A DNA stretch of 64,000 nt from Marinifilum sp. D714 (lineage in GTDB: Bacteria; Bacteroidota; Bacteroidia; Bacteroidales; Marinifilaceae), in contig NZ_JALPNU010000008.1 in assembly GCF_030851345.1 (NCBI RefSeq), positions 1-64,000 on the forward strand. The letters run 5' to 3'. Below are positions 9,858-27,799 of this stretch, piece by piece. The notes below the pieces were generated by a model. The model had not been told where the DNA came from. It saw nothing but the letters and a program-made list of their open reading frames with translations, and did no database searches. Every line of letters begins with the position of its first letter. The first letter of the stretch is position 1. The position numbers and the translations under genes were made by a program.

Positions 9858-12203
9858 TTAAAAATCAATCACAATACCAATGGTAGGAATTGGTGATCCT
9901 TCCTCTTCCACTACCTGCTCCAAGCTTCGAGGTTCGGTGATCATTCCATTCTCATCTCTTGCCAGAATGTACTCGGGCGCTTCGGGGGTTTTATGCATGA
10001 GTAGATTTTGAATCTCCAGGAAAAACTCCAGAGATAACTTCTTGAAATTGTACTTTTTATCAATTCGCACATCCAGTTCGCTGAAAACACCCAGTTTATC
10101 CTCTCCCATTCTGCTGTAATCCAAAACAATTTCGGGATAGCGATTCAAAGTTTCGTCCAGATTGGTTGGCACAATTGGTGTTTCACCTGCAAAACGGTAG
10201 CGTGCACTAACCTCCCAGTTTTTCTTGAGTTTGTATCCTCCGGTGAATGACAAAAGGTGACGACTGTCCCATACCGATGGCAAATATTTGCTGCGATCGA
10301 ATCCCGTAAACTCACTATAGAAAAAGGTATAGGCAAACAAACCGTAGAATCGCTTGCTTAGCTTTTGCTGAAACTGCAATTCCAGTCCATAACTTCTTCC
10401 CTTTCCAAGGGTCTCAACCGCTTCGTTACCCAGTACCTCGAAATCGGCACCTTTATTGGCCAGGGATACCTGATCTGCTATGGATACCGGATAATCGCTA
10501 TACCTCTTGTAAAATGCCTCTAAACTGATGCTGGCTGCTGGTCCTAGTATTCTTTCCAGTCCAAGAACAAAATGATCACTTCTGGTGTAATCCGCATCCT
10601 GATTCACAAAGCTTCCATTTTCCTGGTATCCCAAAATGGTATAGGGTGCTATTTTGTAATATCTTCCTACTGATGCTTTCAGTTTCCAATCATCCACAAA
10701 CTCGTAAGATAAAGCCATACGAGGCGATAAAGTCGAAAGCAAAGAATTTCCTTTGGTAAAACTGTCTCCATCCACTCGCAGGCCAAAAGAAAGATCCATT
10801 CGCTCATCCAGAAAGCTTCGCGTGATATTGGCAAATCCACCATACTTCATGAAATCAATTTCGGTTTTGTAGGCATAATTGTCGTTCAAATCAAGGGTTT
10901 TGTTTTCATAATCGCTGTACTGCATATTTAAACCAGTTTGAATCTTCCAATCATTTTTAAAGGTTGTTACTGCCCAACGAAGTTTGGTTTCTTTTTCGCG
11001 CGAATCATTTCTAAAGTAAAGCCCCGTTTGGTTTCGATTGTCTTCATAACGAGAAAAATCATTCTTTAACGAGTTGTTGCTAAGACTTGTCTGCATAAAT
11101 CCCTTTCCCGTTTTAAATCGGTGTTTCCAACTTAGGCCTATGGTATTACTCTGCTGCTCGATAAAAGGAGCTTGCTCCAGTATGGATAGTTCATCTCCTT
11201 CAATATCTCCACTGTCATCTACAGCAAAATCGTCAATCGATCCCAATCCAATTAAGTTTAAGGTATTGTATTTGTCGATTCTATGTGTGACTTTGTATTG
11301 ATAATCCCAATAGTCGGGACGTATTGGCAATCCTATCAGTTCGAATAAAAACTGAAGATAAGAACGTCGTACAGAAACCATATAACTGGTTTTGCTCTGC
11401 TCTTTTCCCTTTTTAAACAGGGGACCTTCATGAGTTAAGGCAGCCTCGCTGGCACTCAATCTAAAATTGGTGTGATAGGAAGAGCGGCTTCCTTCTCGCT
11501 GGCTGAATTGTAAAACTCCCGATAGCGCATTATCATACTGACTGCCAAATGCCGAGGTCGAAAGCATTACATCATCAATAAAGGATACGTTCAACATCCC
11601 AACCGGACCACCCGAGCTCCCCTGCGTACTAAAGTGATTGATATTGGGAATCTCTATTCCATCCAAATAATAAACCGATTCGTTGGGTGCTCCACCACGA
11701 ATGATCAAATCATTTCGAAAACCTCCCGGCGATGGCGAAATGCCTGGAAATGTTTGTGCCACACGTACCACATCATTATTTCCACCAGGATAGGTGGCAA
11801 TCTCAACTGCTGATAAGGATTGTGTTGAAAGCGGTGTTTCTCTTGGGCGTGTAATCTTATTCTGATTGGAAACAATTACTTCAGACAAGTTGGTTGGGGC
11901 TTCTTCCAAAACAAAATTGTATTCTTGATTTCCTACCGATTTAACATCGATATTGTAACGCGTTTGACTTTTGTATCCCAAATAGCTTGCTACCAAATTA
12001 TAGGATCCGGGCTTTACCTTTTCAATCTGGTAATAACCATTTTCGTTGGTAATGGCACCTTGCGTTGTGTTTTCAAGATAAACTGATGCACCAATTAAGG
12101 CCATTCCTGTCTCATCTGTTACATATCCTGATATGGAAGTACTAATTTGCGAATAGCAATTAATAGCAAGGAGTATAAAAAGGATGGATAGTAGTTTTCT
12201 CAT
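9858..12203 (-). CDS. TonB-dependent receptor with carboxypeptidase-like domain
   Basis: This 781-residue outer-membrane receptor has a signal peptide (MRKLLSILFILLAINCYSQ), then a CarboxypepD_reg-like domain (about 22-110, ISGYVTDETGMALIGASVYL). A plug domain follows (about 130-210, with DLIIRGGAPNESVYYLDGI), then a beta-barrel ending in a terminal Phe (GIVIDF). It is smaller than SusC proteins and has no SusD partner beside it. The upstream gene is separated from it by a terminator at 12278-12305, so it probably has its own promoter. The substrate cannot be read from the sequence; the neighbouring peptidases suggest a role in the same peptide-uptake locus. Confidence 0.85.
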   Translation of the reverse strand: MRKLLSILFILLAINCYSQISTSISGYVTDETGMALIGASVYLENTTQGAITNENGYYQIEKVKPGSYNLVASYLGYKSQTRYNIDVKSVGNQEYNFVLEEAPTNLSEVIVSNQNKITRPRETPLSTQSLSAVEIATYPGGNNDVVRVAQTFPGISPSPGGFRNDLIIRGGAPNESVYYLDGIEIPNINHFSTQGSSGGPVGMLNVSFIDDVMLSTSAFGSQYDNALSGVLQFSQREGSRSSYHTNFRLSASEAALTHEGPLFKKGKEQSKTSYMVSVRRSYLQFLFELIGLPIRPDYWDYQYKVTHRIDKYNTLNLIGLGSIDDFAVDDSGDIEGDELSILEQAPFIEQQSNTIGLSWKHRFKTGKGFMQTSLSNNSLKNDFSRYEDNRNQTGLYFRNDSREKETKLRWAVTTFKNDWKIQTGLNMQYSDYENKTLDLNDNYAYKTEIDFMKYGGFANITRSFLDERMDLSFGLRVDGDSFTKGNSLLSTLSPRMALSYEFVDDWKLKASVGRYYKIAPYTILGYQENGSFVNQDADYTRSDHFVLGLERILGPAASISLEAFYKRYSDYPVSIADQVSLANKGADFEVLGNEAVETLGKGRSYGLELQFQQKLSKRFYGLFAYTFFYSEFTGFDRSKYLPSVWDSRHLLSFTGGYKLKKNWEVSARYRFAGETPIVPTNLDETLNRYPEIVLDYSRMGEDKLGVFSELDVRIDKKYNFKKLSLEFFLEIQNLLMHKTPEAPEYILARDENGMITEPRSLEQVVEEEGSPIPTIGIVIDF

Positions 12204-12277: not shown

Positions 12278-12305
12278 CAAAAAAAAGAGCCCCGGTAAGG
12301 GCTCT
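12278..12305 (-). terminator. Rho-independent terminator
   Basis: On the minus strand AGAGCCC pairs with GGGCTCT (12286-12292 with 12299-12305) and is followed by a run of eight T residues. It ends the transcript of the 12368-13207 lipoprotein gene. Confidence 0.85.
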
Positions 12306-12367
12306 CTTCAATAACACTAACTAAATCAGATGTTCTAATTACCAACAATTAGAATACCTAATGCTTT

Positions 12368-13207
12368 TTATTTGTCAATATAATATTCATACATTTTTAA
12401 AGCATCTTCCCATTTGTTGATTCGAAACTTTGCATTTTGTGTTCCTAAGTCAACTTTCTCCACAAATTCAGGATTTGTTTCTTCCAATGAATCCAGATGC
12501 TCATTCATTTTAATGTAAATATTTTTACCAACTGTAAATAGATTTTCAGAGATACCTATTTCCTCACCTTTTGAAATAGTCAAATAATACCTGTTATCTT
12601 TAACCTCTAATTTTTCTGTTAATCTGTTTAATGCACCACCCATCATTTGTGCAGCTACTTTCTTCTGTTTGTCACTGGCATTTTTCACCTTTTCAAAATC
12701 AACCTTCAAGAAAAAGAAGTATTCGTATTTCTCATGTCTTTTCACAGCTCGAAACAAATCAGAAGCATCACATCCAAAAATTTGAACGGAATCTTTACCA
12801 TGCTTATTATACAAGCGATTGCGCACATCATTCATTGCCTGCCTTTTAACTGGACCTTTGGTGTCTTTGCTCTTTAAAAATTCCAGAAAGTAATAGGGAC
12901 GATTAAAACCATATTTATTGGCTTCTACTTGCGCTTCCTTTGGTGATAACATCAGGTTTTTACCCAACTGATACCAGGAGTAATTATCAATATAGAAACG
13001 GTCGTTGGCAATCTTTTCCGTTCTAAATTCCTGAATACTTTGCCCATTTGTTTTAAGAAGACGAGCAGAATCCTGTGCACTCACCTGATAATTGTTAATT
13101 TCATTATCAAAATCAGCTTTAAATTGAGCTATATAGGACTCATGATCGTAAGAATTACAAGCTGATAACAGCAGTACAATCAAGATTAGATAATGTGAAT
13201 GTTTCAT
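12368..13207 (-). CDS. Hypothetical lipoprotein, 279 aa
   Basis: A lipoprotein signal is clear (MKHSHYLILIVLLLSACNS, Cys17). The mature protein is charged, mostly helical in character, with one Cys in IFGCDASDLF. No family is recognised. It lies 37 bp downstream of the S46 peptidase gene on the same strand and is followed by a strong terminator, so it is probably the last gene of the peptidase operon. An accessory role in peptide handling at the cell surface or periplasm is inference from position only. Confidence 0.65.
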   Translation of the reverse strand: MKHSHYLILIVLLLSACNSYDHESYIAQFKADFDNEINNYQVSAQDSARLLKTNGQSIQEFRTEKIANDRFYIDNYSWYQLGKNLMLSPKEAQVEANKYGFNRPYYFLEFLKSKDTKGPVKRQAMNDVRNRLYNKHGKDSVQIFGCDASDLFRAVKRHEKYEYFFFLKVDFEKVKNASDKQKKVAAQMMGGALNRLTEKLEVKDNRYYLTISKGEEIGISENLFTVGKNIYIKMNEHLDSLEETNPEFVEKVDLGTQNAKFRINKWEDALKMYEYYIDK

Positions 13208-13244: not shown

Positions 13245-15404
13245 TTACTTCCACTCCTCCAACAAAGCTTTTGCTTTTAATTGATGTTCCAATACAAATC
13301 GCACATAGCGAATGTCAACGGAGATCTGACGGGTAAGTTCAGGCATAAACTTGTAATCGCCTACTAATCCGTTACCTGCACTATCGAAGTTCAAACCAAT
13401 CAATCTCCCTTTGGCATCTAAAACAGGACTACCTGAATTTCCTCCCGTGGTGTGGCAGTTGCTGATAAAACAAGTGGGAATTGTTTTCTTCGATTCCTGA
13501 ATTGCCTTTTCGCAAGACTCAAGATATCCATTTGGCACTTCATAAGTTTTAGCGTCTTTCTTACTTTTCTCAACCAAATCATTTAAGTCAGACATATATG
13601 AGTATTCAATTCCTTCATCATTAATCCCAACAATATTTCCATATGATACTCTAAGACTTCTGTTTGCATCAGCGATGATTTTTTCGTCACCTTTCATTGC
13701 TTTTACTGCTTGTAAATATCTTTTATGATATTTGCCGTACTCTTTTCTGATGGTAGCCCGTTGCATGTATACCATGTCTTTGTTGATTAGGAAGTAGCTC
13801 AAGCATAAGTCGAATACTGGGTCGTTCGCTAATTTTTCTCGGTCCTCTTTTGTGAAATATTTTAGAAACTCAATTAAGCTTTCCTTGGATGCAAACAATG
13901 ATTGACTAAAAATATCATCAATATACTTGTTGAAATCACCATTGTATTTGGTTCTTGCATTTACAATAGCAGCTGGCTTGTACTGATCACCAACATTTTT
14001 ATCGTATAAGGCTACAAGTGTTTTTAAGAAGGTCTTCTCTGTTTCAACATCATAAGCATTGTAGAAGTTTGAGGCTTCAACTCTCAGCTTTCTCAACTCT
14101 TTGTTCAGGCGTTTTTCGTTCACATTTTTACGAGAACTTATGGCATTCAGCATATCAAACTTACCTGCAAAAGCAACAAAATTTCCACCTCTAATACCGC
14201 CCTCGAACACATACATATTCAATTTTTCAATAGTATCTAAACGTGCAACACACGATTCAATGCCAGGAATGATATCTGCATATTTTTCTCTACGATCTTC
14301 TGATGAATTAAGCCAAGCTGTAAATTCTTCTTCTTCCTTCTTTTTCAGTTTGATCAAATCTAATTTTTCAATTCCGCGAAGTTCTGCTTTCCAGCGTAAC
14401 AAACGGTTAGATGTTTTCGCCATGAAATCGGAATATTTCAACCATAAATCTTCATTTTTATTCATGGCTTCTTTAATAATCTCCATTTTGGCATCTCTGA
14501 TCTTGATTCCATGGTAATTTGTAACATCAACAACCTGTTCAATTGCTCTGGCCGTTACATATTGCTTTGTACTACCCGGAAAACCATATACCATTGCAAA
14601 ATCACCATCTTTGTATCCTTTTAATGATAATTCCAAGTGATTTACCGGTTTGATCGGCTCATTTGCAATTGAATATTTTAATGATTCATTGTTAGAATTC
14701 GCATAAACGCGAAGTATCGCAAAGTCTGCCGATTGACGAGGCCATTTCCAGTTATCGGTTTCTCCTCCAAACTTTCCCAATGTCAAAGGAGGCATTGCAA
14801 CAATTCTTACATCGCGATAGATTTCATATACTTCAAGAAAATATTGAGTTCCACCAAAGTAGGATTTTATCTTTGTTTGATAATGGTTTCCTTCCTTAGC
14901 CTTAGCAGTAATTTCCTTGGCTCTCTTATTAATTAATCGACTCTTTTCGATGTCCGACAAAGTCTCTGTTCGGTTCAAAAGATCCTCGGTAACATCTTGC
15001 AAGCGAACCAATCTCGACAGGGTTAATCCCTTAGCTGGCAACTCATCTTGTTGGTTTTGAGCATAAAAACCATTTCTCAAATAGTTATGCTCTTCGCTAC
15101 TATGCTTATGTAAATAAGATACCACAGTATGATGATTGGTTAATACCAATCCTGATTCCGAAATGAAAGATCCGCTTCCTGTGAAAGTTGTAGGATTACT
15201 CTTCGATCCTAATCCAACAATAGCATCTTTCAGGCAAATTTTATTGATATCATAAACATCATTAGCAGACAGTTTAAATCCTGCCTTTTTCATGTCCTTG
15301 ATATTGTATTTTTTTAATAGCGATGGAATCCACATTCCTTCGTCTGCCTTTACTGATGCTACTGACAGCACCAAGCAAATAAACAATAATTTTAGTCTAA
15401 GCAT
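13245..15404 (-). CDS. S46 family dipeptidyl-peptidase (DPP7/DPP11-like)
   Basis: S46 peptidases are periplasmic exopeptidases that remove dipeptides from oligopeptide N-termini in Bacteroidota. Here the signal peptide (MLRLKLLFICLVLSVASVKA) is followed by the typical mature start DEGMW. The catalytic His lies in LTNHHT, the Asp in SADFAILRVYA and the Ser in GGNSGSPV (about residue 657); ISVDIRYV near the end is also typical. The residue 18 positions after the catalytic Ser sets P1 preference: Gly in DPP7, Arg in DPP11. Here it is Ser (LNFDSAGNG). The longest frame adds nine residues, but ATG 15404 starts a proper signal peptide. It lies 94 bp after the metalloprotease gene. Confidence 0.9.
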   Translation of the reverse strand: MLRLKLLFICLVLSVASVKADEGMWIPSLLKKYNIKDMKKAGFKLSANDVYDINKICLKDAIVGLGSKSNPTTFTGSGSFISESGLVLTNHHTVVSYLHKHSSEEHNYLRNGFYAQNQQDELPAKGLTLSRLVRLQDVTEDLLNRTETLSDIEKSRLINKRAKEITAKAKEGNHYQTKIKSYFGGTQYFLEVYEIYRDVRIVAMPPLTLGKFGGETDNWKWPRQSADFAILRVYANSNNESLKYSIANEPIKPVNHLELSLKGYKDGDFAMVYGFPGSTKQYVTARAIEQVVDVTNYHGIKIRDAKMEIIKEAMNKNEDLWLKYSDFMAKTSNRLLRWKAELRGIEKLDLIKLKKKEEEEFTAWLNSSEDRREKYADIIPGIESCVARLDTIEKLNMYVFEGGIRGGNFVAFAGKFDMLNAISSRKNVNEKRLNKELRKLRVEASNFYNAYDVETEKTFLKTLVALYDKNVGDQYKPAAIVNARTKYNGDFNKYIDDIFSQSLFASKESLIEFLKYFTKEDREKLANDPVFDLCLSYFLINKDMVYMQRATIRKEYGKYHKRYLQAVKAMKGDEKIIADANRSLRVSYGNIVGINDEGIEYSYMSDLNDLVEKSKKDAKTYEVPNGYLESCEKAIQESKKTIPTCFISNCHTTGGNSGSPVLDAKGRLIGLNFDSAGNGLVGDYKFMPELTRQISVDIRYVRFVLEHQLKAKALLEEWK

Positions 15405-15498
15405 TTTAAATTCAGTTGTAGGTCTCCCCATTTGATGAATTTACATTCATCAATTATCTTTTTAATTCAATTTATTCTTTACTCTACTGAACTATGAT

Positions 15499-17850
15499 TT
15501 AGTTCAAAATATATTTAAGGAAGGTGAAATGTTTTTTGATGTTTTCATTTCCCTTTTCAGCTCGTTTGATCGAAATGTTCTTAATAGATTCTAATTCTGC
15601 TTTAATGTCAGCCATGATTAAATTATTAAACACATGACCACCTTTATCGGCATTATCTTTCAATAATTTTTGCAGACCTTTTACATATTCTACCTGCATA
15701 TTTCTCATCCAGTCTGTTTGTTGCTTTTTAGCCGATACATTAAATAATCTATCTGTAATGTCTGCTAAATATTCACCCACTGTATATGAGTCTTTTGATT
15801 CAGTTGTGCATGTATACATTCTAACCAGAACAGCTCTGTTCAACAGGTCTTCAATCTTTTTGCCTTGCGAATTCATGATTTCGCGATCCAGACTTCCCAG
15901 TCTTCTCTCTAAATCTTCACTCTTCATCCAATCAAATTGGGCAAGCAATTCATCCATGATATAGTCCACAGCTTCCTTTTGCTTTTTGCAACTTACTGCC
16001 ACATATTTTTCGGGATGAGTCTCATTGGTAACATCAAATTCGAAAACACCTCCTAATCTGGCTTCAACATGTTTAAAGTACCTGTTGTACTGTTTGATTA
16101 CACCATCGTACATCCATCGCAAATGATCATCTCCAAGCTCATCAGCAGCAGACCATTCAATCAGATTCTTCATGATTAGCTTTGCATTTACTGCACCGTA
16201 GCGACTTGCTTTCACTACATCATTTCCTAAGGATTCCGTTAAAACAGAAGGATCTAAAGTTCCATCTCCCATACCATTTTTAGCACCAAACAAATACATA
16301 TCATCTTTGCTACGCTCTTGGAACCATTTGTTCAATGTTACAATTTCTTCTTCTGTTGTATTTACTTCGTAAATAGGTTGGTATGCCCATTTAATTGCGA
16401 AATAATCATACACTCCCAGTAAAGGTGGAGTTAGGCTTACTCCTTTGTCTTTAGCCTGAGTAATGTAATTGTTTCGAGCATAATCCATAATTGAAGCGGC
16501 AGTTCCATATTTCTTGGTGAAGCTTGGCGATCGTAATGAGTCTACAGGGAAAGCATAAGATGCTCTATAATTATGCTTCATGCCCAAACAGTGTCCAATT
16601 TCATGTGCAGCAGCGTAACGAATTAACTCTCCTAAAATTTCATCTGAAATATCATTCATATTTCCTCTAATGGCAGGATCGTTTGCAGCTGTCTGAGAAA
16701 AACGCCACTGGTACAGTTTGCTAATCACATTGTGATAAAAAAGCACATCACCCTGTAAGATTTCTCCGGAACGAGGATCAATCCAATGGTTACCCATAGC
16801 ATTTGCTTTTTCAGTAGTAATGTATCTAAAGCAATTGTTTGTAAAATCGTTGGCGTGAAAAGAGGTATCGTTTACCGGATAATCCTTAGCAATAATTGCA
16901 TTCTTGAATCCTATTTTCTCAAATGCCATTTGCCAATCTTCAATACCAGTCTTAATATATGATTTCCATTTTTCAGGAATCGAATTGTCTACGTAAAATA
17001 CAATTGGTTTCTTAGGTTCAACCAATTTGCCATTCTTATGGTTTTGAATGTCTTCCTTTTTAGGTTCTAGTCTCCATCTTCTAATATATGAGTAGGATTT
17101 TACATCCATATATTCAGATGATAATTCTTTTCTTACTTCTTCGTAGTAGTTAATTTGGGCACTTGCTAAACGAGGACGCATAGGTTCTTTGGGAAGTAAA
17201 ACAATTGAGCGGTGCAATGAACACATAAATTGACTGCGCTTTCCCATAAATCCCATTTGAGTTACAATTTCAACATTGCCATCATATGCTCTTGCGTCAA
17301 TGGTTTTTGTAGCTTCAGGTATTACTTTTCCCCTGCTACCACCACCAAATGGTGAAATTTGAGGAATTTGATTGTTAAAGAATTTGGTAACATCAATTAC
17401 CGATGAGCTATTCCTTGCGTTTCGTGCTTCCTTTTTGAAAGCAGTATAAATGGTTTGAATGTTGTTTCGATCGAAAGAAATACTAATAGGATCCTTGGCA
17501 TCCATTACCTTTTCAGTATCTATTATATGCAGATATACGCTCTTATCATCCTGGCTGAATCTTACCAAGATTGGATTGTGCATCATTTGACCAGCAACTG
17601 CATTTTTGGTAGAGCTAATTTCTTCTACCCTGCTACCAATCAACAAATCTCTCCCCATAATGCTATCGGGAATTTCAAACCACAATTTACCGTCATTCAT
17701 ATGAATGCTGATAAACCCGCTATCGCTGATTTCAGCTTTGTTTATCAAAGCTTGATATTTTTTAGCTAATGCTGCATTATTCATTTGTGCACTTGCCGAA
17801 AAGCTTAGCGCAAGAATCAATAAGAGAAATGATAATTTAAGTCGAAACAT
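15499..17850 (-). CDS. Secreted zinc metalloprotease (DUF5117/DUF5118/DUF4953)
   Basis: The 783-residue protein has a signal peptide (MFRLKLSFLLLILALSFSASA) and an extended zincin motif HEIGHCLGMKH (about residues 415-425), which is HExxHxxGxxH, the metzincin pattern. The region before the motif fits DUF5118 and DUF5117 and the region around it DUF4953, an arrangement common in Bacteroidota and often found beside SusC/SusD pairs. Function has rarely been tested; the motif implies protein or peptide cleavage. It is followed on the same strand by the S46 dipeptidyl-peptidase, and together they could convert proteins into dipeptides. A terminator upstream (17901-17925) separates it from the SusCD transcript. 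Confidence 0.85.
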   Translation of the reverse strand: MFRLKLSFLLLILALSFSASAQMNNAALAKKYQALINKAEISDSGFISIHMNDGKLWFEIPDSIMGRDLLIGSRVEEISSTKNAVAGQMMHNPILVRFSQDDKSVYLHIIDTEKVMDAKDPISISFDRNNIQTIYTAFKKEARNARNSSSVIDVTKFFNNQIPQISPFGGGSRGKVIPEATKTIDARAYDGNVEIVTQMGFMGKRSQFMCSLHRSIVLLPKEPMRPRLASAQINYYEEVRKELSSEYMDVKSYSYIRRWRLEPKKEDIQNHKNGKLVEPKKPIVFYVDNSIPEKWKSYIKTGIEDWQMAFEKIGFKNAIIAKDYPVNDTSFHANDFTNNCFRYITTEKANAMGNHWIDPRSGEILQGDVLFYHNVISKLYQWRFSQTAANDPAIRGNMNDISDEILGELIRYAAAHEIGHCLGMKHNYRASYAFPVDSLRSPSFTKKYGTAASIMDYARNNYITQAKDKGVSLTPPLLGVYDYFAIKWAYQPIYEVNTTEEEIVTLNKWFQERSKDDMYLFGAKNGMGDGTLDPSVLTESLGNDVVKASRYGAVNAKLIMKNLIEWSAADELGDDHLRWMYDGVIKQYNRYFKHVEARLGGVFEFDVTNETHPEKYVAVSCKKQKEAVDYIMDELLAQFDWMKSEDLERRLGSLDREIMNSQGKKIEDLLNRAVLVRMYTCTTESKDSYTVGEYLADITDRLFNVSAKKQQTDWMRNMQVEYVKGLQKLLKDNADKGGHVFNNLIMADIKAELESIKNISIKRAEKGNENIKKHFTFLKYILN

Positions 17851-17940: not shown

Positions 17941-19479
17941 TTATTCTGCGTAGAATGTGTACTGTAACTTTATAGTATAAGTATCCCCATCTTTTGTTGC
18001 ATATTTTTCATCAACAACTATGTCAGCATCTGCACATGTAAATACAACATCAATATCCACTATTCCTGTTGCTAAATTGTAAGTACCTACAGTCTTCTGA
18101 ATTTGAACTTCAACTGGAGTTACATTTGAAGACTGAGAAATATCGCCTTGTGTATTTCTTGAATCTTCGTACCAGAAATAATAGCTTTCTGTTCCACCTT
18201 CAACATCAACTGTAGTTTTAGCTTTCCAATCTACCCCATCTTTTATCTTGTAAAGGGTAATAGTTTGCTCTGGAACAACAACTGTACCTTCTGATGCTGA
18301 AGCATCGGTTGAAACAAATCTTAACCAACCATCCGTCTTTATTTCACTTCTTGAATAAGTAGCTTCATTAGAGAAGAACTTTGTTAAACCAAAAATATCT
18401 CCACACTGAACTTCATGTCTTTCTTGTTCTATAATATCAACATTCTTATAGCCTAATTCTTTATTGTAGTGATTGATCACTTCTTTCCATTGGTTACTGT
18501 CATCAGCATTGGCAGCAAAGAAATTCAAAGTACTCATTGATGAGTATTTTGCATCAACATTGTTCCAATATAAAGATTTTACCCTATAAACCTCCAAATC
18601 AGTTCTGTATGGAGGCATAGTTCCTTCATAAGCTCCACCACCTGCGAAAAAGTAATCGTAAGTATTTAGATCATTAAACCATTTTGTAAAATCAACCTGT
18701 GGATCAACAGCATTAATTGCTACAGTATTTTCCGTTGCTTTTACCGCATAGTCAGTTACAGATGGTGTCTCAAAACCGAAAGTTACTGTTTTGTCCATTC
18801 CAATATTACCAGTATACTTCATCGTTACAGTAAAATCAGCAGAAACATTACCTGCAGGAATAGTAATTGCATCATTAGTTAAACCAGCAATTTCGTAATC
18901 CGTATCAGCAACTAAATCTCCTGTAATTGTCAATGGAATTACCAAATCAGTAGCAAATGTTTTGCTCAAACCAACAGTAATGGTTTTTACCTCCTCCATG
19001 TATGGATTGGTAACAATGTTAGAAGTTGCAAACGATACTTCAGGTGCATCCGAAGGAGGATTTGCATTGTCTACAATTATTATGTCTACATTTGCAGGAG
19101 TAGACAATTCATAACCTGTACCTGCTTGCAATTCAATATTTACAACTTTACTGTCCTCAATTGCCGAAACATTTATAGGTGTAACAAATATGTTTGCTGA
19201 AGTTTGGTTGGCAGGAATGGTTACAGTCTTTGCAATTTCCTGATAGTTCACTCCTTCAACAGCGGTACCCGATATAGCAATGCCCACATTATAAGCTGTT
19301 CCAAGTGGAGCATCAGCATTTACTTTTACCACCAGGGCAGAAGTAGCAGTTTCCGAAATTTCAATTGCATCCGCAGTGATTGAAAGTTTAGGGATAATAG
19401 GATCATCATCATTACTACAGCTTGCCAAGATTAGTGCGGCTACCATTAGCCACAACATGTTCAAAAAATTTTTCTTCAT
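17941..19479 (-). CDS. Surface lipoprotein with two Calx-beta-like domains
   Basis: The 512-residue product starts with a lipoprotein signal (ALILASCSNDDD, Cys21). The DDD after the lipidated Cys resembles the acidic export signal of Bacteroidota surface lipoproteins. Residues about 30-130 and 140-250 look like Calx-beta-type Ig domains (GTAVEGVNYQ, VTIPANQTSANIFV; DYEIAGL, ITIPAGNVSADFTV). The C-terminal half is unrecognised. The longest frame starts 13 codons earlier, but ATG 19479 gives the proper signal. It occupies the SusE/SusF position behind SusD, so it probably helps capture the substrate of the SusCD pair. The gene is followed by a terminator. Confidence 0.75.
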   Translation of the reverse strand: MKKNFLNMLWLMVAALILASCSNDDDPIIPKLSITADAIEISETATSALVVKVNADAPLGTAYNVGIAISGTAVEGVNYQEIAKTVTIPANQTSANIFVTPINVSAIEDSKVVNIELQAGTGYELSTPANVDIIIVDNANPPSDAPEVSFATSNIVTNPYMEEVKTITVGLSKTFATDLVIPLTITGDLVADTDYEIAGLTNDAITIPAGNVSADFTVTMKYTGNIGMDKTVTFGFETPSVTDYAVKATENTVAINAVDPQVDFTKWFNDLNTYDYFFAGGGAYEGTMPPYRTDLEVYRVKSLYWNNVDAKYSSMSTLNFFAANADDSNQWKEVINHYNKELGYKNVDIIEQERHEVQCGDIFGLTKFFSNEATYSRSEIKTDGWLRFVSTDASASEGTVVVPEQTITLYKIKDGVDWKAKTTVDVEGGTESYYFWYEDSRNTQGDISQSSNVTPVEVQIQKTVGTYNLATGIVDIDVVFTCADADIVVDEKYATKDGDTYTIKLQYTFYAE

Positions 19480-19564
19480 CTTGTTAATAGATTTTTGGTT
19501 ATGGTTGGATCTTCCCAAGGGGTATCGGAAAGATCCTTTATTAAAATTAATTATCTCTCAATGT

Positions 19565-20995
19565 TTAGTATCCTGGATTTTGCTCCATTTGGTCATTGAA
19601 TTCAATCGCATCCTCAGGAATAGGAAGAACAAACAAATTATTTGGATAGTCAATATTTATATTCTCACGCGCATTACAATCTACGCGGTGCAAATTTCTT
19701 CCCATTCTAGCAATATCAAAGAATAGGTGACCTTCGAATGCCAATTCTCTTCTTCTTTCATTAAAAAGCTCTTCATCCAAAGCAAAACCTGATAATTGTA
19801 GATTTTCGGCATTTGGGTTAGCACGTTTACGAATCACATCTAAGTCTGCACGTGCTTGAACCTCATCTCTAACTGGTAAATTTAAAGAAGCCTCAGCACG
19901 AATTAGGAACATTTCAGCTAAACGAAGAACAGAAATATGATTGTCTTGATCAGCAAACTCTACCCATTTTTTAGTTAACTGAGCTTCCATTTGAACATCA
20001 AATAACTCTCCACGAACATCTCCATCATTATATAATTCAATAATATCATTTGTAGGAAGTAAGTATAAAGAAGTTCGAGCTTCAGAGATTCCTATAATAT
20101 CCGAAAGTGGAGCTCCAATTTTCCTACCACTATTATCAACAATAAAAATATCTTCTCGACTTGGTTCTTGTTTTGAAAATGATTCTACAAACTCTGCTGT
20201 AGATAATAGAGATACCTCTCCATCTTCTATAACTTTTGTTGCATATTGTCTTGCTCTCTCCCAATCACCTTTATACAAGTAAACTCTTGCCAATAAAGCT
20301 TGTGCAGCAAGCTTTGACATATATGCTTTTGAATAACTTGCTCCTACATTTCCAATTGCAGTACCTAAATTTCCTTCAGCATAAACCAAATCTGCAATAA
20401 TATTTTCATAATTATCAAATAATAAATCACGAGTCACCAATTCATCATATCGTATATTTCTAAGCATATAAGGAACACCCAGGTGTTGTGCATTTGCAGT
20501 ATACGAGTATGGCTGAGCATAAAAACGAGTTAAATCAAAATGTGCCAAAGCCCGGATGGCCCTTGCTTCAGCCTCAATTTGTGCCTTTTCTTGCTCAGTT
20601 GCATCTGCTACATTTTCAATATTTTCGATTACATTATTCGCATAGCTGATTACTCTGTACAAATGTTTATAGAAATTACTCATGTAATCAGCCTCTCCCT
20701 TTACGGTATGTGTAAACTCGAATGATGGGAGATAATTATATGATTTAGCATTTTCGAAAGAAATGTTATTTACCTTAAGGTTTCCTCCCTTAATTTCCGG
20801 TGCAATAATCATATCTTTTCCATAATAACTTCCGTTACCTAACTCATAATACGTTCCATTAAGTGCCTCATCTGCTCCATTCAAAGTAGAGAACAACTTA
20901 TCATTGGAAATTTTGGTTTCATCTTCAATATCCAGAAAATCAGAACAAGAAGCTAAACCCAAAACCAATAGTCCTATGTATGTGATATTTTTCAT
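19565..20995 (-). CDS. RagB/SusD family outer-membrane lipoprotein
   Basis: SusD proteins are surface lids that feed a substrate to a SusC channel. This one has a lipoprotein signal (GLASCSDFLDIE, Cys17). It also has the helical TPR-like body (AEARAIRALAHFDLTRFYAQ is the hallmark stretch) and the C-terminal RRRELAFEGHLFFDIARMGR segment, broken here as RRELAFEGH and FFDIARMGR. Length (476 residues) is normal to slightly short. It lies 28 bp after SusC. Nothing in the sequence points to a sugar substrate; nearby peptidases favour a RagB-like peptide role, which is inference. Confidence 0.9.
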   Translation of the reverse strand: MKNITYIGLLVLGLASCSDFLDIEDETKISNDKLFSTLNGADEALNGTYYELGNGSYYGKDMIIAPEIKGGNLKVNNISFENAKSYNYLPSFEFTHTVKGEADYMSNFYKHLYRVISYANNVIENIENVADATEQEKAQIEAEARAIRALAHFDLTRFYAQPYSYTANAQHLGVPYMLRNIRYDELVTRDLLFDNYENIIADLVYAEGNLGTAIGNVGASYSKAYMSKLAAQALLARVYLYKGDWERARQYATKVIEDGEVSLLSTAEFVESFSKQEPSREDIFIVDNSGRKIGAPLSDIIGISEARTSLYLLPTNDIIELYNDGDVRGELFDVQMEAQLTKKWVEFADQDNHISVLRLAEMFLIRAEASLNLPVRDEVQARADLDVIRKRANPNAENLQLSGFALDEELFNERRRELAFEGHLFFDIARMGRNLHRVDCNARENINIDYPNNLFVLPIPEDAIEFNDQMEQNPGY

Positions 20996-21023: not shown

Positions 21024-24023
21024 TTAAATTCCAAGTTTTAACTGAAAGGCAAATGTTCGTGACTGCGGGAATGGATAACGGTATTCTGCCAAACCATTTC
21101 TACCTGATTTGCTGTCGTCTTTATACCATGTATAAACATTTGAAACATTTACTCCCACTGAAACATTTGCCAATTTTACCCTTTCACAAATGTGTTTTGG
21201 AAAATTGTAATTCAGAGAAACAGATTTTAACGCAATATTTGTTTGATCGAACAGATAGCGTGAACTATTTTGATTGAATGAAACATCTTTGGCTAATCTT
21301 GGAATGTCAGTAATATCACCAGGATTTTGCCATCTGTCTAAGAGGTTTATACTTTTATTATAAATGTCTAGGTTTTTCTCTTTTTCCATATCGCGAGCAG
21401 GATATGGCATCATTTTATCCGCCCCATACTCATAGGAAATCATAAAGTTTAGATTGAAACCTTTATATCCAAAACTATTAGAGAATCCACCGGAAAAATC
21501 TGGAGAACGCTTACCGATAATGGTTTTTTGTGAATTACTATTGTTACTTAACACGCTATAATCTTCAGTAATCACACCATCTTTGGTATACCACATAGGA
21601 TTTCCATTATTCGGATTAACTCCCGCATATCGATTGCCCATTATTAATGAAGTAGATTCGCCAACAATAAGCGCTGCATTCCCTGAAGTAAATTGATCAG
21701 CATAAGCAGACAATTTATCCAATTTATTCTCATTAAATCCAATATTGAAATTCGATGTCCATTTTACCGGACCTAAATTAATATTGCTTGCCTTTAGTGT
21801 AAATTCGAAACCAGAATTAGTAAAATCAGCAGTATTTACAGAAATGTTATTCCAACCTGTTTCAGGAGAAACATTCAATGATAAAATCCCATCTTTGGTT
21901 TTGTTGTTATAATATTCCGCTTCAAAATTTAATTTTTTCAGAATCTTAGCAGTTAAACCTACATTAAACTTCCAGGTAGTTTGCCATCCTAAATCTTCAT
22001 TGGCAGCAGCATACGGAGTTGCTATAATTTTTCCATTGTAACTTGAACTAATACCATAGCTATATAATCCTCGTGCCGAGAATGATCCAACCTTAGCATT
22101 TCCCAGCTTACCATAGGATGCCTTTAACTTTAAGAAATTAATAATATCATTCTCCTTCCAAAAATTTTCTTTCGAGATGGTCCATGATCCTCCCACCGAA
22201 GCAAAGTTTTCTACTTGTTGGTCTCCTCCAAAGTACGATGAAGCATCTGATCTATAATTAACTGAAAGAAAGTATCTTTTCTTAAAATCATAATTAAACC
22301 TTCCGTAATATGACCTGGTGGCATCTTCACTTTCAGAAGATCTCACCTTACTATATTCATCTTCTGGAGCAAGTCCTAAAACTTTAATTTTCTCAGTAAG
22401 TAAATTGGTTTCGTAAGCTGTTGTACTTGAGCTTTCCTCATGCTTTAACTGAATACCTGCAGTTGCCCCAAAAGAGTGATTCTTATATTCTCCATTGTAT
22501 ACCAATTGTGTATATGTAACCCAGTTGTTGTTTTCTTTTCTGGTCTCCTTAATTTTACCCCCATCATCGTCACCTCGGCCATTTTCTTTAGAATAGAAGG
22601 TAAATTGCTTTGTGTTGGTATAATCCAAACCAAACATACTCTCTGACTTGATGTTTTTCGATAATTTAATATCAAGCCTTAAACTATTGTTCGTATAGAA
22701 TTTATCAGATTCATTAATGTTTTGATCTAAATCAGCTAATGGATTTGCATAGAATTCAACCTTTGTATAATCACCATTTTCATCATAAATCGGGATATTT
22801 GGTTTAAATGCATATGTTGCAAAAGCTGCATATTTATGAGACTTAAAACTAGTAATACCACCACTATATGATAATCTGATCCCTTTAGCCAATTCTGCAT
22901 CTAAACTTAAGCGAGAGGTAATACTTTCCGAATCATTCCCTTTAGTCGTCGTCTCATTATCTTTATAACCTAAGGAAAGACGATAGGTTACCTTATCTGA
23001 TCCTCCAGAAATACTCAAGTTGGTTTGATGCGAAACAGAATTTTGAAGAGTTAAGTCTCGCCAATTGGTATAAACATCAGTACGTCCAATCTCTTCTGCA
23101 ATTCTATCTTCAGTATAATTTGTTGAATTACGATACCATTCAGATGCCAATTCAACATATTGATCCGTATTTAAATATTGAATTTTATTAATCGGACTGC
23201 TTAGTAAAGTTTTGTGTGATAATGAAACTCTCGTTTTACCCTTTACTCCTTTTTTTGTGGTAATAATTACCACACCGTTTGCTGCGTTAGCACCATAAAT
23301 TGCTGCAGCTGAAGCATCTTTCAAAATGGATACTGATTCAATATCTTCAGGGTTAATCAATGCCAACGGATTGATAACAATTTGCTCATCACCGGCTCCA
23401 CCTCTTTTGTCATCAATGTTAGGATTTAAAGCATCAATCAAGGGTACACCATCCAAAATATACAATGGTTCACTCGAAGCTGTAATATTATCACCCAAAT
23501 CTGGTAAAGAGTTATTACCACGAATACGAACCCTTACCGGACTATTCGGATTTCCGTCATCCGATTCCAAATACACACCAGCAACCTGACCTTCCAACAT
23601 TTGGTCAACACTTTGAGCGTTACTGTGCTTTAGCAATTCATCAGATTTTACCTGCTCTACCGAACCAACCACAGCCTCACGTGATTTTACGCTACCGTAA
23701 CCAAGAACAACTACTTCGCTTAGTTTTTGGTCGGCGGATTTTAATTGTACATTAATCACTTTCTGACCTTTTACCGCAATAAATTGGGTTTCATAACCAA
23801 TAAATGAAAACATCAGTTCAGCATCCGATTTTGTTACTTTTAAAGTAAATTTTCCATCGAAATTAGTGGTTACCCCATTCGATGTTCCTTTTTCAAGCAC
23901 AGTAACACCTGGTATACCAAGCTTATCACCTGCATCGCTTACCGTTCCCGTTACTGTCAGTCCCTGCGCAAAAAGCTGGAACTGAAGTAAAACAAGAAAT
24001 GCTATTAAATAAATTCTTTTCAT
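21024..24023 (-). CDS. SusC/RagA family TonB-linked outer-membrane protein
   Basis: The 999-residue transporter has a signal peptide (MKRIYLIAFLVLLQFQLFAQ), then a carboxypeptidase-like domain (about 22-110, VTGTVSDAGDKLGIPGVTVL). The plug carries SusC landmarks (LEGQVAGVYL, VRIRGNNSL, EPLYILDGVPL, ILKDASAAAIYGANAANGVV), and a large barrel ends FAFQLKLGI. It imports a nutrient across the outer membrane using TonB energy, together with the SusD-like protein encoded next. It starts 31 bp after the polyferredoxin gene, so both are almost certainly co-transcribed. In Porphyromonas gingivalis the homologous RagAB pair imports oligopeptides, which fits the peptidases downstream here. Confidence 0.93.
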   Translation of the reverse strand: MKRIYLIAFLVLLQFQLFAQGLTVTGTVSDAGDKLGIPGVTVLEKGTSNGVTTNFDGKFTLKVTKSDAELMFSFIGYETQFIAVKGQKVINVQLKSADQKLSEVVVLGYGSVKSREAVVGSVEQVKSDELLKHSNAQSVDQMLEGQVAGVYLESDDGNPNSPVRVRIRGNNSLPDLGDNITASSEPLYILDGVPLIDALNPNIDDKRGGAGDEQIVINPLALINPEDIESVSILKDASAAAIYGANAANGVVIITTKKGVKGKTRVSLSHKTLLSSPINKIQYLNTDQYVELASEWYRNSTNYTEDRIAEEIGRTDVYTNWRDLTLQNSVSHQTNLSISGGSDKVTYRLSLGYKDNETTTKGNDSESITSRLSLDAELAKGIRLSYSGGITSFKSHKYAAFATYAFKPNIPIYDENGDYTKVEFYANPLADLDQNINESDKFYTNNSLRLDIKLSKNIKSESMFGLDYTNTKQFTFYSKENGRGDDDGGKIKETRKENNNWVTYTQLVYNGEYKNHSFGATAGIQLKHEESSSTTAYETNLLTEKIKVLGLAPEDEYSKVRSSESEDATRSYYGRFNYDFKKRYFLSVNYRSDASSYFGGDQQVENFASVGGSWTISKENFWKENDIINFLKLKASYGKLGNAKVGSFSARGLYSYGISSSYNGKIIATPYAAANEDLGWQTTWKFNVGLTAKILKKLNFEAEYYNNKTKDGILSLNVSPETGWNNISVNTADFTNSGFEFTLKASNINLGPVKWTSNFNIGFNENKLDKLSAYADQFTSGNAALIVGESTSLIMGNRYAGVNPNNGNPMWYTKDGVITEDYSVLSNNSNSQKTIIGKRSPDFSGGFSNSFGYKGFNLNFMISYEYGADKMMPYPARDMEKEKNLDIYNKSINLLDRWQNPGDITDIPRLAKDVSFNQNSSRYLFDQTNIALKSVSLNYNFPKHICERVKLANVSVGVNVSNVYTWYKDDSKSGRNGLAEYRYPFPQSRTFAFQLKLGI

Positions 24024-24054: not shown

Positions 24055-25926
24055 TTAGTTTGTAAGTTTAAATTTGTATGGATTTGCAACCTGCTCGGTT
24101 TCACCATTGGTGTAGACCAATGTCATTTGCGGCTGACTCATCCAATCGATGATTTCCTGAGGATCGACCATATTCTGAATGTAGAAGAATCGAACGGTTG
24201 GTTGTGCTTTGTAATCGGCCTGAATACCAACTACTCCCTTGTATTTCTTAGCAACGTGGTTTGACAACTCCTTAAACTTGTTCTCATTTTTAGGAAAATC
24301 CTCCAATACCAACATTACCGATCTTAACTGCTCTCTTGGATAAGATTTAAAGTTGTTGAAGATTGCCTCATGCTTCTTAAATGTTCTTTTCATCAAACCC
24401 ATTCCATTAATTGGCACATTAGATTCAACAACATCCTTCACTTCGTATGGGTAACTTCTGCGATGCCTAATGGTAGTAATCAAAGTCTCAATTTTTGATT
24501 CACTCATATCAGCATCACAGAATGCCAATAATCTAACCTCAGTATCAAATTGAGTCTCCAATTGGTAAACATCTTCATCTTTAAGAGCCTCCGCCATAAT
24601 CTTCAAGTCTGCCTCTGTAAGATACTTGGCAACACGAAGTTTGTGAACTGTCAACTCCTGATCCAATTGTGGAGCCTTCACAAATTGTTTTGATCTGGTA
24701 TAAAGCATTTTTCTGATGCTCAGCTCATCAATTTTTGTAGTATCGTAGGTAATCTCCGCTTTGTGATCGCTGATATAAGTATTAACAGCCAAAACTCCAT
24801 CCACTTCTTTCATCTGACGCACAAATCCCATAGAACTACTAAAGCAAGTCAAGTGACTCATGTGATTAATGGTGAATTCCTTTGATCTCTCTATATCTTC
24901 CTTGCTTCCCCAAGCCTTAGAAACTGTTGGTAAGTTATATTGACTTGCAATTAGTAATCCCGAAATGAACAATACCACTACCAATACAGAAGGCAACCAT
25001 TTCACGTTCATCTTTTCGTTTAATGTAAGTGCACCATCTTTTGGGCATGCAGAAACGCAATCGCCACAAAGGTTACAATCAGGATGTTTTACCGTCTCCA
25101 AATCAGCTACATCAATTCCTTGTGGACAAGTTCTTGAACACAGGCCACAATCGATACAAGTATGTGTGTGACGAGTTATTTTTAAAACGGACTGTTGTTT
25201 TGTTTGAATTTTAAGAATCTCCAAAGCGTATCCTATCAAGCAGATAATTCCAACAATAATGCTGATATCAACACCTACCTCGAAAAAGTACATCGAAGAC
25301 AATACGGCAACAACAACTCCAACTCCAATCCAATATTTGAAAATGTTTGAGATTGCTCCCAGCGGACACAAATACTTACACCAGAACAATCTGAAAATGA
25401 TGGAACCTAGTATAAATACAGAAATCGAGATTGTTGCAAACAAAAAGTTTACTCTGTGCCCAAACATGGTAACAGAACCATAAAATGGATCGTATGTCTT
25501 GCAGAACAATTCTCCGGTTTCAAGGGTAATGGTAAGCGTAAAAAATAAAAGAATGTATTTTAAACTTCTTAATACTTTATCGGTAACACCATTAATATCT
25601 CTTCTGATTTTAAATTTATCAGCTACTTTTCCAATAGCTTCTGAAACTGTACCTAAAGGACAAAGGTGACTACAGAACAATTTTCCAAGAACCAATATGC
25701 AGAATATAAAAATTGCTCCAAGAACCATTTGTGTTACGGTCATGTTACAAGCAATAAGACCATCTTTCATTAAAGTAAGAATGGCTTGAATTCCCCCCAT
25801 CGGACAATAAGTCTCAAAATCGACTACACTTAAGCCTACTTGATTTCCAATAAAGAATAGGATGATCAGAGAAAGAACAGAAAACTGCAAAATGTTTCTG
25901 AATAGGCTAACTCGTTTTTTACTCAT
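24055..25926 (-). CDS. Membrane polyferredoxin with HMA-like C-terminal repeats
   Basis: This 623-residue protein resembles NapH/CcoG-type polyferredoxins. It has about six membrane helices, two membrane-proximal CxxxCP motifs (CSHLCPLG and CKYLCPLG) and two cytoplasmic [4Fe-4S] motifs (CIDCGLCSRTCP and CNLCGDCVSACP). After a further helix (about residue 320), the C-terminal 290 residues contain up to three stretches of HMA-like ferredoxin fold (for example VDGVLAVNTYISDHKAEITYD). The metal-binding CxxC is replaced by CFSSS in the first and absent from the others. The longest frame adds nine residues; MSKKRVSLFRN is the better start. It heads the SusCD operon, which suggests electron delivery to a periplasmic step of uptake. 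Confidence 0.8.
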   Translation of the reverse strand: MSKKRVSLFRNILQFSVLSLIILFFIGNQVGLSVVDFETYCPMGGIQAILTLMKDGLIACNMTVTQMVLGAIFIFCILVLGKLFCSHLCPLGTVSEAIGKVADKFKIRRDINGVTDKVLRSLKYILLFFTLTITLETGELFCKTYDPFYGSVTMFGHRVNFLFATISISVFILGSIIFRLFWCKYLCPLGAISNIFKYWIGVGVVVAVLSSMYFFEVGVDISIIVGIICLIGYALEILKIQTKQQSVLKITRHTHTCIDCGLCSRTCPQGIDVADLETVKHPDCNLCGDCVSACPKDGALTLNEKMNVKWLPSVLVVVLFISGLLIASQYNLPTVSKAWGSKEDIERSKEFTINHMSHLTCFSSSMGFVRQMKEVDGVLAVNTYISDHKAEITYDTTKIDELSIRKMLYTRSKQFVKAPQLDQELTVHKLRVAKYLTEADLKIMAEALKDEDVYQLETQFDTEVRLLAFCDADMSESKIETLITTIRHRRSYPYEVKDVVESNVPINGMGLMKRTFKKHEAIFNNFKSYPREQLRSVMLVLEDFPKNENKFKELSNHVAKKYKGVVGIQADYKAQPTVRFFYIQNMVDPQEIIDWMSQPQMTLVYTNGETEQVANPYKFKLTN

Positions 25927-26377
25927 AAGATTTAGATTGATTTTTGATTTCAACCGAAAAGTGGGAAATGATGCAATCCTACACGCTGCATTTTGGAATA
26001 TGGGACTTTTGCTACCGTATCATTTTGGCTTCTGACACTTTTACCACTCTCTTTTTCTGTCGCTTATGATTTTAATTGGATTCGCTCTAAAATATGTATG
26101 ACATCCTACTGTTTTGAATCATTCTACACAACTCAAAAGATTATTCACTTTTGACAATCACCTGAGGCTTTCTTTTTTCAGCATGATTACCTCACACAAT
26201 TAACCTTCTGCTTGCAAAATTGTCTGTATGGGTTCGAGTATGTAATCGCTTGGTTTTAGGATTTTCCACAAAAAAGCCGAATACCGTTTCAGGAAAAAAA
26301 GAAGAAGAAGAAAACACCCAGGAAGAAGCAGTAAGCTAATTTATTCAGAAGAGACACATATATAACTTAGCAGATGC
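25927..26377. other. Spacer upstream of the SusCD operon
   Basis: This spacer should hold the promoter of the minus-strand polyferredoxin-SusC-SusD operon, but I found no convincing TAnnTTTG on that strand. On the plus strand a 40-codon open frame (TTG 26220 to TAA 26339, ending GKKEEEENTQEEAVS) runs into the strong terminator at 26378. No ATG start is available for it. Confidence 0.4.
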
Positions 26378-26405
26378 GAGGGAATCAATGGATTCCCTCT
26401 TTTTT
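26378..26405 (+). terminator. Strong terminator without an assigned gene
   Basis: GAGGGAATC (26378-26386) pairs perfectly with GATTCCCTC (26391-26399) and is followed by six T residues. It points along the plus strand, yet the flanking annotated genes are on the minus strand. It implies a short plus-strand transcript from within 25927-26377. Confidence 0.8.
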
Positions 26406-26462
26406 GTATTTGCACGACACATGCTAAGACGGGAAAGACAAAAGTCAAACTCAGACTCAGGC

Positions 26463-26639
26463 CTTGGAAAGAGTTAAACTTGTCTTGGAGGTTTTACCAG
26501 CCTGTCTTTTTGCACTTGCCTTTTGTCTTGGAAAAGTTTCTTCTGGGTCTTGGAGCACCTTATGAGGAGCTTGGAGTTCTCTTTTTGTGTCTTGGAGAAT
26601 CTTCCAGCCAGTCTTGCTGGCACTGTCTTTTGTCTTGCT
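26463..26639. repeat. Degenerate 21/22-bp repeat array
   Basis: CTTGGA or a close variant recurs at 26463, 26484, 26506, 26527, 26549, 26570, 26591, 26613 and 26634. The spacing is 21 or 22 bp in near alternation (mean about 21.4). The commonest unit core is GTCTTGGAG. The sequence between the cores is only loosely conserved. It begins 45 bp past the AraC-type gene on its downstream side. The non-integral spacing breaks any reading frame. Confidence 0.75.
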
Positions 26640-26683
26640 GATGACGAACTTGGTCAAGGAAATCACTTATCAAAGAAAAGCAA

Positions 26684-27799
26684 TTAACAACTCCTGGACT
26701 TGATATACTCCGTAGGGGTAATTTCATGGAATTGCTTGAAAACACGATTGAATGAAGATTTGGAATTGAATCCACAATCGAAAGCCAGGTAAAGTAGGGT
26801 TTTATCTTTGTGAGCTTTTTGATCTATCAGTTGGATGAAATAGTTAATACGATAAGAATTCACAAAATCAGAATAAGATCGATTTGCATTGCGGTTGATT
26901 GCCTGGGATATGATATGTTCTGGCATATCAATCATATCAGACAATTTTCGTAGTGTTAAATCACCATCTTTATACACTTCTTTTGTTTCAATAAAATTGC
27001 AAATTTTCTGAAACTGCTCATCATATGGATTCTCCCCTACTGAATTGCTCCCTGAATTGGTATTCTCAGATTTAGGAATCGCAACGTTATTATTCATAGG
27101 ATATGCAAATATGTAGGAGTACTTACTATAGATATAAACAAATGATATTACGAATACCGATACGATAATATTAATCAGCATTACCTGATCAATTACAAAA
27201 TGAACGCCTAAAACACCTAGTAATTTTATCAGGAAAACTGCCGAAAGCAATATTATTACACCATTTCCAATACTACTGATCCATTTTAACCGATACGGAT
27301 TTCCTCCTAAAACTGTCTCACTTTTCTGAACTTTTAAGATCATTAAGTAACCGACTACCACGTAGGCCAAAATGATCAAGAATTTCATATAAACAGAAAT
27401 AATGGCATAGATATTATCGGAATGAGAACAACCACCTTCCCCAAGACAATCTACCAATCCTAATGATTTGGTAGTTGTTTTGTACCCCATATACACAGCA
27501 AAAGGAATAAGGTGTAATAAATGCTTCTTGCAAAAACCAAAGTTTGGGTCGACAAGACTTAAAATATAAAAATAGAAAACGGCACCATGCATCACATGAC
27601 TGGCACATGCTAATTCATAAAACCAATGAAAATCGTGAAATAGATTCTGTGAAGATAAAAAGAAGGTTAGTTCAGCTATAGCAACAAGAAAAAGCCAAAT
27701 GGTAAAAATCTTATCAGATAAATGGTTTGCCTTACGCGACAGGATAGAAACCATAAAAAACCCCAATATGGCCAAACAAATCACAAACAAATAATCCAT
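26684..27799 (-). CDS. Membrane-bound AraC-family regulator
   Basis: The 371-residue protein has about seven N-terminal membrane helices (residues 1-225) and a C-terminal AraC-type DNA-binding domain (about 265-371). The DNA-binding part shows LRKLSDMIDMPEHIISQAIN in the first helix-turn-helix and YLAFDCGFNSKSSFNRVFK, then TPTEYIKSR, in the second. Such 7TM-AraC proteins are common in Bacteroidota, where the membrane part is assumed to sense a ligand or envelope state. It lies upstream of, and in the same direction as, the polyferredoxin-SusCD operon, so it may control that operon (inference). A 21/22-bp repeat array lies directly downstream. Confidence 0.85.
   Translation of the reverse strand: MDYLFVICLAILGFFMVSILSRKANHLSDKIFTIWLFLVAIAELTFFLSSQNLFHDFHWFYELACASHVMHGAVFYFYILSLVDPNFGFCKKHLLHLIPFAVYMGYKTTTKSLGLVDCLGEGGCSHSDNIYAIISVYMKFLIILAYVVVGYLMILKVQKSETVLGGNPYRLKWISSIGNGVIILLSAVFLIKLLGVLGVHFVIDQVMLINIIVSVFVISFVYIYSKYSYIFAYPMNNNVAIPKSENTNSGSNSVGENPYDEQFQKICNFIETKEVYKDGDLTLRKLSDMIDMPEHIISQAINRNANRSYSDFVNSYRINYFIQLIDQKAHKDKTLLYLAFDCGFNSKSSFNRVFKQFHEITPTEYIKSRSC

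Follow-up and report, generated by a model that had tools for sequence, protein, structure and literature searches.

Gene organization of the locus

The window examined here is the whole 64,000-nucleotide stretch of DNA from Marinifilum sp. D714. On its minus strand lies a gene, hereafter FeS-HMA, whose product joins a membrane polyferredoxin to C-terminal HMA-like folds. It is followed in order by genes for SusC, SusD, a lipoprotein, a DUF4953 metzincin, an S46 peptidase and a further lipoprotein, and then by a terminator-like hairpin (Table 1). A preliminary description of this DNA gave the same position, strand and length for the gene and placed it at the head of a SusCD operon. The layout agrees with this: SusC lies 31 bp further on, on the same strand and with no terminator-like site between the two genes, so that co-transcription of FeS-HMA with SusC appears probable from gene order. 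The adjacent SusC and SusD genes mark the locus as a SusCD import operon. The hairpin at its far end should be regarded as a mere pattern match, because the region contains 14 hairpins against 11.1 expected.

SusCD importers are known above all for glycan uptake and, in the case of RagAB, for peptide uptake. A polysaccharide utilization locus would carry carbohydrate-active enzymes; Pfam searches of all the operon genes recognized peptidases, whereas neither glycoside hydrolases nor lyases turned up. A chance neighbourhood of importer and peptidases was considered and rejected as unlikely, because the whole genome holds only three S46 and two DUF4953 genes. No DUF4876 gene was found in this genome, and no Escherichia coli-type Fur box in the window, although that motif may not apply in this host.

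The region upstream of FeS-HMA varies among relatives. In seven close relatives (L022, L023, L024, L025, L029, L031 and L033), a gene for a secreted protein of ~200 aa lies between the AraC-family gene and FeS-HMA. The window has instead a 730-base ORF-poor stretch (25954-26683), part of which, at about 26440-26650, is repeat-like, and no remnant of the relatives' gene was found in the window. In one Marinifilaceae genome, the operon is preceded by a gene (L024:8341-8925) whose product resembles a lipoprotein and carries a 2Fe-2S (Fer2) domain. The surface genes also vary. Compared with near strains (L026, L027 and L025), SusC, SusD and the two lipoproteins stand at 66-76% for most, against 95% for FeS-HMA; the exception is L025, where SusC and SusD are at 91-92% to those of the window. 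This divergence between near strains looks like allelic exchange or diversification.

Table 1. Features of the FeS-HMA locus and its surroundings (window coordinates).
Feature	Position	Strand	Evidence or remark
Membrane-type AraC-family regulator, possible operon regulator	26684-27799	-	PF12833; linked in close relatives
FeS-HMA gene, membrane polyferredoxin with three C-terminal HMA-like folds	24055-25926	-	ATG at 25926; 623 aa
First Cx3CP motif, C85-P90	25657-25674	-	Invariant in 65/65
Second Cx3CP motif, C183-P188	25363-25380	-	Invariant in 65/65
Two 4Fe-4S ferredoxin motifs, C257-C294	25045-25158	-	Pfam Fer4_10, E 2.4e-6; eight Cys invariant
HMA-like fold 1, about residues 349-415	24682-24882	-	AlphaFold2, Foldseek, profile match
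C-[FY]-x-S site, C361-S364, in place of CxxC	24835-24846	-	65/65; aligned to CxxC of ATP7B and CopA
HMA-like fold 2, about residues 424-501, no conserved Cys	24424-24657	-	Alignment and AlphaFold2
HMA-like fold 3, about residues 534-604, no Cys	24115-24327	-	AlphaFold2
SusC/RagA-type TonB-dependent receptor	21024-24023	-	TIGR04056, 705.7 bits against a cut-off of 368
SusD-type lipoprotein	19565-20995	-	PF07980 and PF14322
Probable surface lipoprotein	17941-19518	-	Weak Calx-beta/DUF4843 similarity, both below cut-off
DUF4953 met-zincin metalloprotease	15499-17850	-	PF16313, E 1.6e-88
S46 peptidase	13245-15431	-	PF10459, E 1.2e-179
Probable lipoprotein, no assigned function	12368-13207	-	Retained by most close relatives
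Terminator-like hairpin, probable operon end	12282-12309	-	Pattern match
Second TonB-dependent receptor, probably a separate unit	9858-12203	-	PF00593; missing from several relatives

Membrane part and Fe-S motifs

The four Fe-S motifs of the preliminary description were all located, namely C85xxxC89P, C183xxxC187P, C257xxCxxCxxxC267P and C284xxCxxCxxxC294P. Pfam assigns Fer4_5 and Fer4_10 domains to the protein and no PepSY_TM domain, and the Cx3CP pairs C85/C89 and C183/C187 are putative cluster sites. Hydropathy averaged over 26 members, together with loop charge, predicts seven likely helices; the N-terminus and the ferredoxin motifs fall on the inner side of the membrane and residues 330-623 on the outer side. 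The model is simple and falls short of a dedicated topology prediction: the helix limits were set by eye from hydropathy peaks, and helices 197-215 and 219-237 share one peak. The structural model of the whole-length protein had a pLDDT of 67, which is too low to search for matches to the fold of the membrane part.

The nearest curated family is NapH, to which the N-terminal part is closer than to CcoG; the NapH profile covers residues 3-194 at E 2.5e-18. FeS-HMA shares the NapH/MauN-type layout, in which membrane helices are combined with a pair of Cx3CP motifs and a pair of 4Fe-4S motifs. However, the curated cut-offs are missed for NapH (NF007013/TIGR02163, 66.2 against 234 and 64.1 against 213 bits) and for CcoG (TIGR02745, 17.7 against 316.7 bits), and the protein is therefore filed under neither family. 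Of the NapH/CcoG-like carrier originally proposed, the resemblance to NapH is retained and membership of either family is not. Unlike NapH, FeS-HMA has one more helix, some 290 HMA-like residues, and C41, C60 and C142 facing the predicted periplasmic side; it has no nap genes nearby, and the genome carries a separate NapH-like gene (L002). The CcoG/RdxA/FixG proteins are likewise polyferredoxins whose C-terminal domain is expected to be periplasmic, but that domain is FixG_C, whereas FeS-HMA ends in HMA-like folds.

C-terminal HMA-like folds

Up to three HMA-like folds had been suggested for the C-terminal residues, and structure prediction yields three. The AlphaFold2 model of this part, built with 26 relatives, has a mean pLDDT of 86.4 and consists of three beta-alpha-beta-beta-alpha-beta units, an HMA-like rather than an unrelated architecture. 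Its top Foldseek match is the N-terminal extension of CzcP (E 6.7e-4, probability 1.00); CopA and ATP7B appear lower in the list, amid weaker matches to unrelated alpha/beta proteins, and whole-chain TM-scores are low because the matches span at most two of the three domains. In sequence searches, the family profile retrieves ATP7B (2e-8) and CopA (4e-5), with C361 opposite the first and S364 opposite the second cysteine of their CxxC motif, while the Pfam HMA model (PF00403) gave no match to the protein at E 0.1. The first fold is thus backed by both sequence and model, and the second and third mainly by the model. By predicted fold and by profile, although not by a CxxC site, the C-terminal part is HMA-like.

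Across 65 sequences, of which those measured share 28 to 96% identity with the window protein over the full length, the CxxC metal site is absent from all three folds. The HMA pairs of CzcP, CopA and ATP7B are similar in fold and sequence, but FeS-HMA has C-[FY]-x-S in fold 1, with the third residue G, S or A across the family, and no conserved cysteine in folds 2 and 3. Sixteen cysteines (C41, C60, C85, C89, C142, C183, C187, the eight ferredoxin cysteines and C361) and S364 are invariant in 65/65, and the monothiol change in fold 1 is conserved as strongly as the cluster ligands. Since C361 is invariant within its motif, the site in fold 1 is altered, not lost; the loss of the metal site claimed in the preliminary description applies to folds 2 and 3.

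Such folds call to mind copper handling, in which a cupric reductase and copper relay, in the style of CcoG plus a chaperone, would feed cuproenzymes or copper uptake. The HMA folds are closest to those of copper ATPases, CcoG has been discussed in the literature as a cupric reductase, and there is a known case of a TonB copper importer partnered by a PepSY_TM protein (PMC12914433). We nevertheless regard copper handling of this kind as very unlikely, given that the two-Cys copper site is missing from every fold and that the neighbouring gene families, where their expression is known, are tied to iron and not copper (PMC10434189).

Family distribution and genomic context

FeS-HMA relatives were found in 18/59 genomes of the taxonomic family by single-sequence search, in 37/344 genomes of the order by alignment search and in 12/395 genomes of a phylum draw, 11 of them outside the class. 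When the class was surveyed with one query sequence at 1e-30, only the genome of the window was returned. This reflects a limit of sensitivity, because the alignment search found 36 more genomes in the order, and confinement to Marinifilaceae within the class was rejected. FeS-HMA is an unnamed family across Bacteroidota that reaches beyond the class.

Gene contexts were counted at 64 loci from same-strand genes within 8 kb, some loci being clipped by contig ends, and an importer, peptidase or linked transport gene lies near FeS-HMA in 42 of them. All 18 Marinifilaceae loci carry an importer and a peptidase. In close Marinifilaceae these are SusCD and peptidase genes (10/10 loci), and in distant members a TonB receptor with DUF4876/6850 and a peptidase (8/8). 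The ten close-relative loci, which include Marinifilum breve, M. fragile and M. caeruleilacunae, retain FeS-HMA together with SusC, SusD, lipoprotein, metzincin and S46 genes. Importer-system or peptidase genes accompany 10/11 loci outside the class, often M16, M28, ABC-DUF4857 or PepSY_TM, and 14/35 loci in the rest of the order.

In the tree, the 13 SusCD-linked rows (of 65) form one group with support of 100/98, and 18/22 unlinked rows fall in one other group, the standalone clade. The SusCD partnership of the preliminary description, which lack of any such linkage among relatives would have undercut, is real at all ten close loci and yet specific to one clade; elsewhere the partners are other TonB-receptor/DUF4876/DUF6850 systems, and one large clade is linked to no importer. 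The standalone clade implies that the protein's job does not always involve an importer. DUF4876 genes occur in 10/11 FeS-HMA carriers outside the class against 36/395 genomes overall, in 13/14 non-standalone carriers of the order against 5/48 genomes lacking the FeS-HMA gene, and in 0/18 genomes of the standalone clade; Fisher tests on these counts overstate independence because the genomes share ancestry.

Neighbours of other kinds also occur. In the standalone clade, an Exo_endo_phos_3 (PF19580) gene is divergent or nearby in nine loci (L114, L116, L127, L130, L131, L133, L134, L135 and L137). At L119, L126 and L128, the genes after FeS-HMA encode a large surface protein of the T9SS type (DUF7948, PKD, SprB, CHU_C), a PorP/SprF protein and a PD40 protein. 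In one relative from outside the class (L065:8338-11847), the gene immediately preceding FeS-HMA encodes a cytochrome c552 nitrite reductase (nrfA-like), and this takes the place of an importer.

From the 18 genomes of the standalone clade, where FeS-HMA sits beside unrelated genes, and from the nrfA-linked relative, it could be argued that the protein is a general envelope electron donor, located in import loci by happenstance and serving other periplasmic enzymes. Against this, the linkage recurs with different importers and is coherent within clades. In addition, two genomes, G999 (L142, L120) and G877 (L141, L129), each hold one copy at a SusCD locus and one at a DUF4876 locus, and these paired paralogues suggest dedicated copies. 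A general donor seems to us decidedly unlikely.

Redox partners at DUF4876 loci and related iron-starvation loci

DUF4876 loci that lack FeS-HMA may carry another redox gene. A PepSY_TM gene is present in two of them (L079, L080). In four Bacteroidia loci (L081, L083, L084 and L091), a di-haem CCP/MauG gene follows the TonB receptor, DUF4876 and DUF6850-like genes, and by gene content these loci are a putative second redox variant of the DUF4876 import locus. At some others, neither PepSY_TM nor CCP/MauG was recognized.

Two related loci in other genera respond to iron. In Bacteroides thetaiotaomicron, iron depletion raises the expression of BT3625-33 by 36.7- to 128-fold; this locus comprises two PepSY_TM genes, ABC, DUF4857 and DUF4876 genes and a TonB receptor. 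In Porphyromonas gingivalis, PG1019-22 is induced 20.8- to 214.5-fold (PMC10434189). Further, a P. gingivalis DUF4876 gene is among the strongest hemin-responsive genes (PMC10470040). Many FeS-HMA family loci resemble both systems in their TonB receptor and DUF4876, and BT3625-33 additionally in PepSY_TM, ABC and DUF4857 (PMC10434189). However, no polyferredoxin gene is listed for either, and the clade of the window has SusCD instead of DUF4876/DUF6850.

The preliminary description called the supply of electrons to an importer unexpected, which was too strong. FoxB, FpvG and FhuB are membrane reductases beside TonB-dependent importers, the role proposed here for FeS-HMA, and FoxB and FpvG are PepSY_TM proteins acting as periplasmic ferric reductases (PMC10866019). 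FeS-HMA is unrelated to these PepSY_TM proteins and differs in its Fe-S chemistry and in the SusCD and peptidase genes alongside. The Fus ferredoxin-uptake system and protease-associated import systems couple TonB-dependent protein import to a periplasmic M16 protease for iron acquisition (PMC6071955, PMC6793856). M16 also accompanies many FeS-HMA family members, whereas the window operon has S46 and metzincin genes. No electron carrier was found with the terms searched in PMC6793856. In the open-access literature, nothing relevant was found on the fusion of NapH to HMA or on TonB loci that carry a polyferredoxin.

The recurrent peptidases also bear on thiol reduction, the main rival because of these enzymes and the C-x-x-S site. 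The conduit would then reduce disulfides of imported proteins or peptides via C41, C60, C142 and C361, so that the peptidases could cut them. Four invariant cysteines on the predicted periplasmic side and the constant company of S46, M16, M28 and DUF4953 peptidases at importer-linked loci would fit such an enzyme. On the other hand, thioredoxin, Dsb and CcdA-type genes were not recognized in the subset of neighbours scanned with Pfam, and the PepSY_TM and CCP/MauG substitutes at the same place are not thiol enzymes. We consider thiol reduction unlikely.

Proposed function

The best-supported reading, to which we give a probability of roughly 0.45, is that FeS-HMA acts as a conduit for electrons through the inner membrane, works on behalf of an outer-membrane import locus and reduces what the imported cargo carries. 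Electrons would probably come from menaquinol, as in NapH-type proteins, and would pass through the Fe-S sites of the membrane part to the periplasmic side. There, C41, C60, C142 and the three-HMA chain with its single invariant thiol, C361, would face the cargo. SusCD would import a peptide or protein, the metzincin and S46 peptidase would cut it, and the conduit would reduce its load and so set it free. A metal is the likeliest load, with iron ahead of copper. Metal release is preferred because related loci are induced by iron starvation and PepSY_TM proteins occupying that position elsewhere are ferric reductases (PMC10866019).

This reading of FeS-HMA as a conduit draws on its domains, invariant cysteines and gene order, and on its repeated linkage to importers and peptidases. 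The predicted HMA-like folds and outside topology are consistent with it, as are the DUF4876 association, the PepSY_TM or CCP/MauG substitutes, the iron-starvation loci and the FoxB/FpvG precedent. Several observations point the other way. The case for iron is indirect, in that the iron-induced loci as listed lack FeS-HMA and the clade of the window has SusCD, not DUF4876. Fold 1 lacks the normal two-Cys metal site, the window has no E. coli-type Fur box, and in the 18-genome clade and the nrfA-linked relative the protein is found with no importer beside it. The earlier suggestion that a substrate, metal or disulfide is reduced during uptake fits the TonB receptor, DUF4876, DUF6850, peptidase and PepSY_TM contexts and the reported induction (PMC10434189); reduction itself stays a proposal.

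A more specific version is put forward tentatively and is, in our judgement, possible but somewhat doubtful. The monothiol HMA chain of these putative Bacteroidota envelope reductases may strip metal off imported peptides or proteins. The SusCD-linked members would then form a reductive-uptake branch, and in TonB-dependent loci the family would be an interchangeable redox module, the third after PepSY_TM and CCP/MauG.

Significance

If the proposal is true, a reductase in a peptide-type SusCD operon would bring reductive metal or thiol chemistry into that system. The sixteen conserved cysteines and the exchange of redox partner at iron-starvation-related loci make the question testable, and a function would come to a family that is likely annotated at present only as '4Fe-4S binding protein'.
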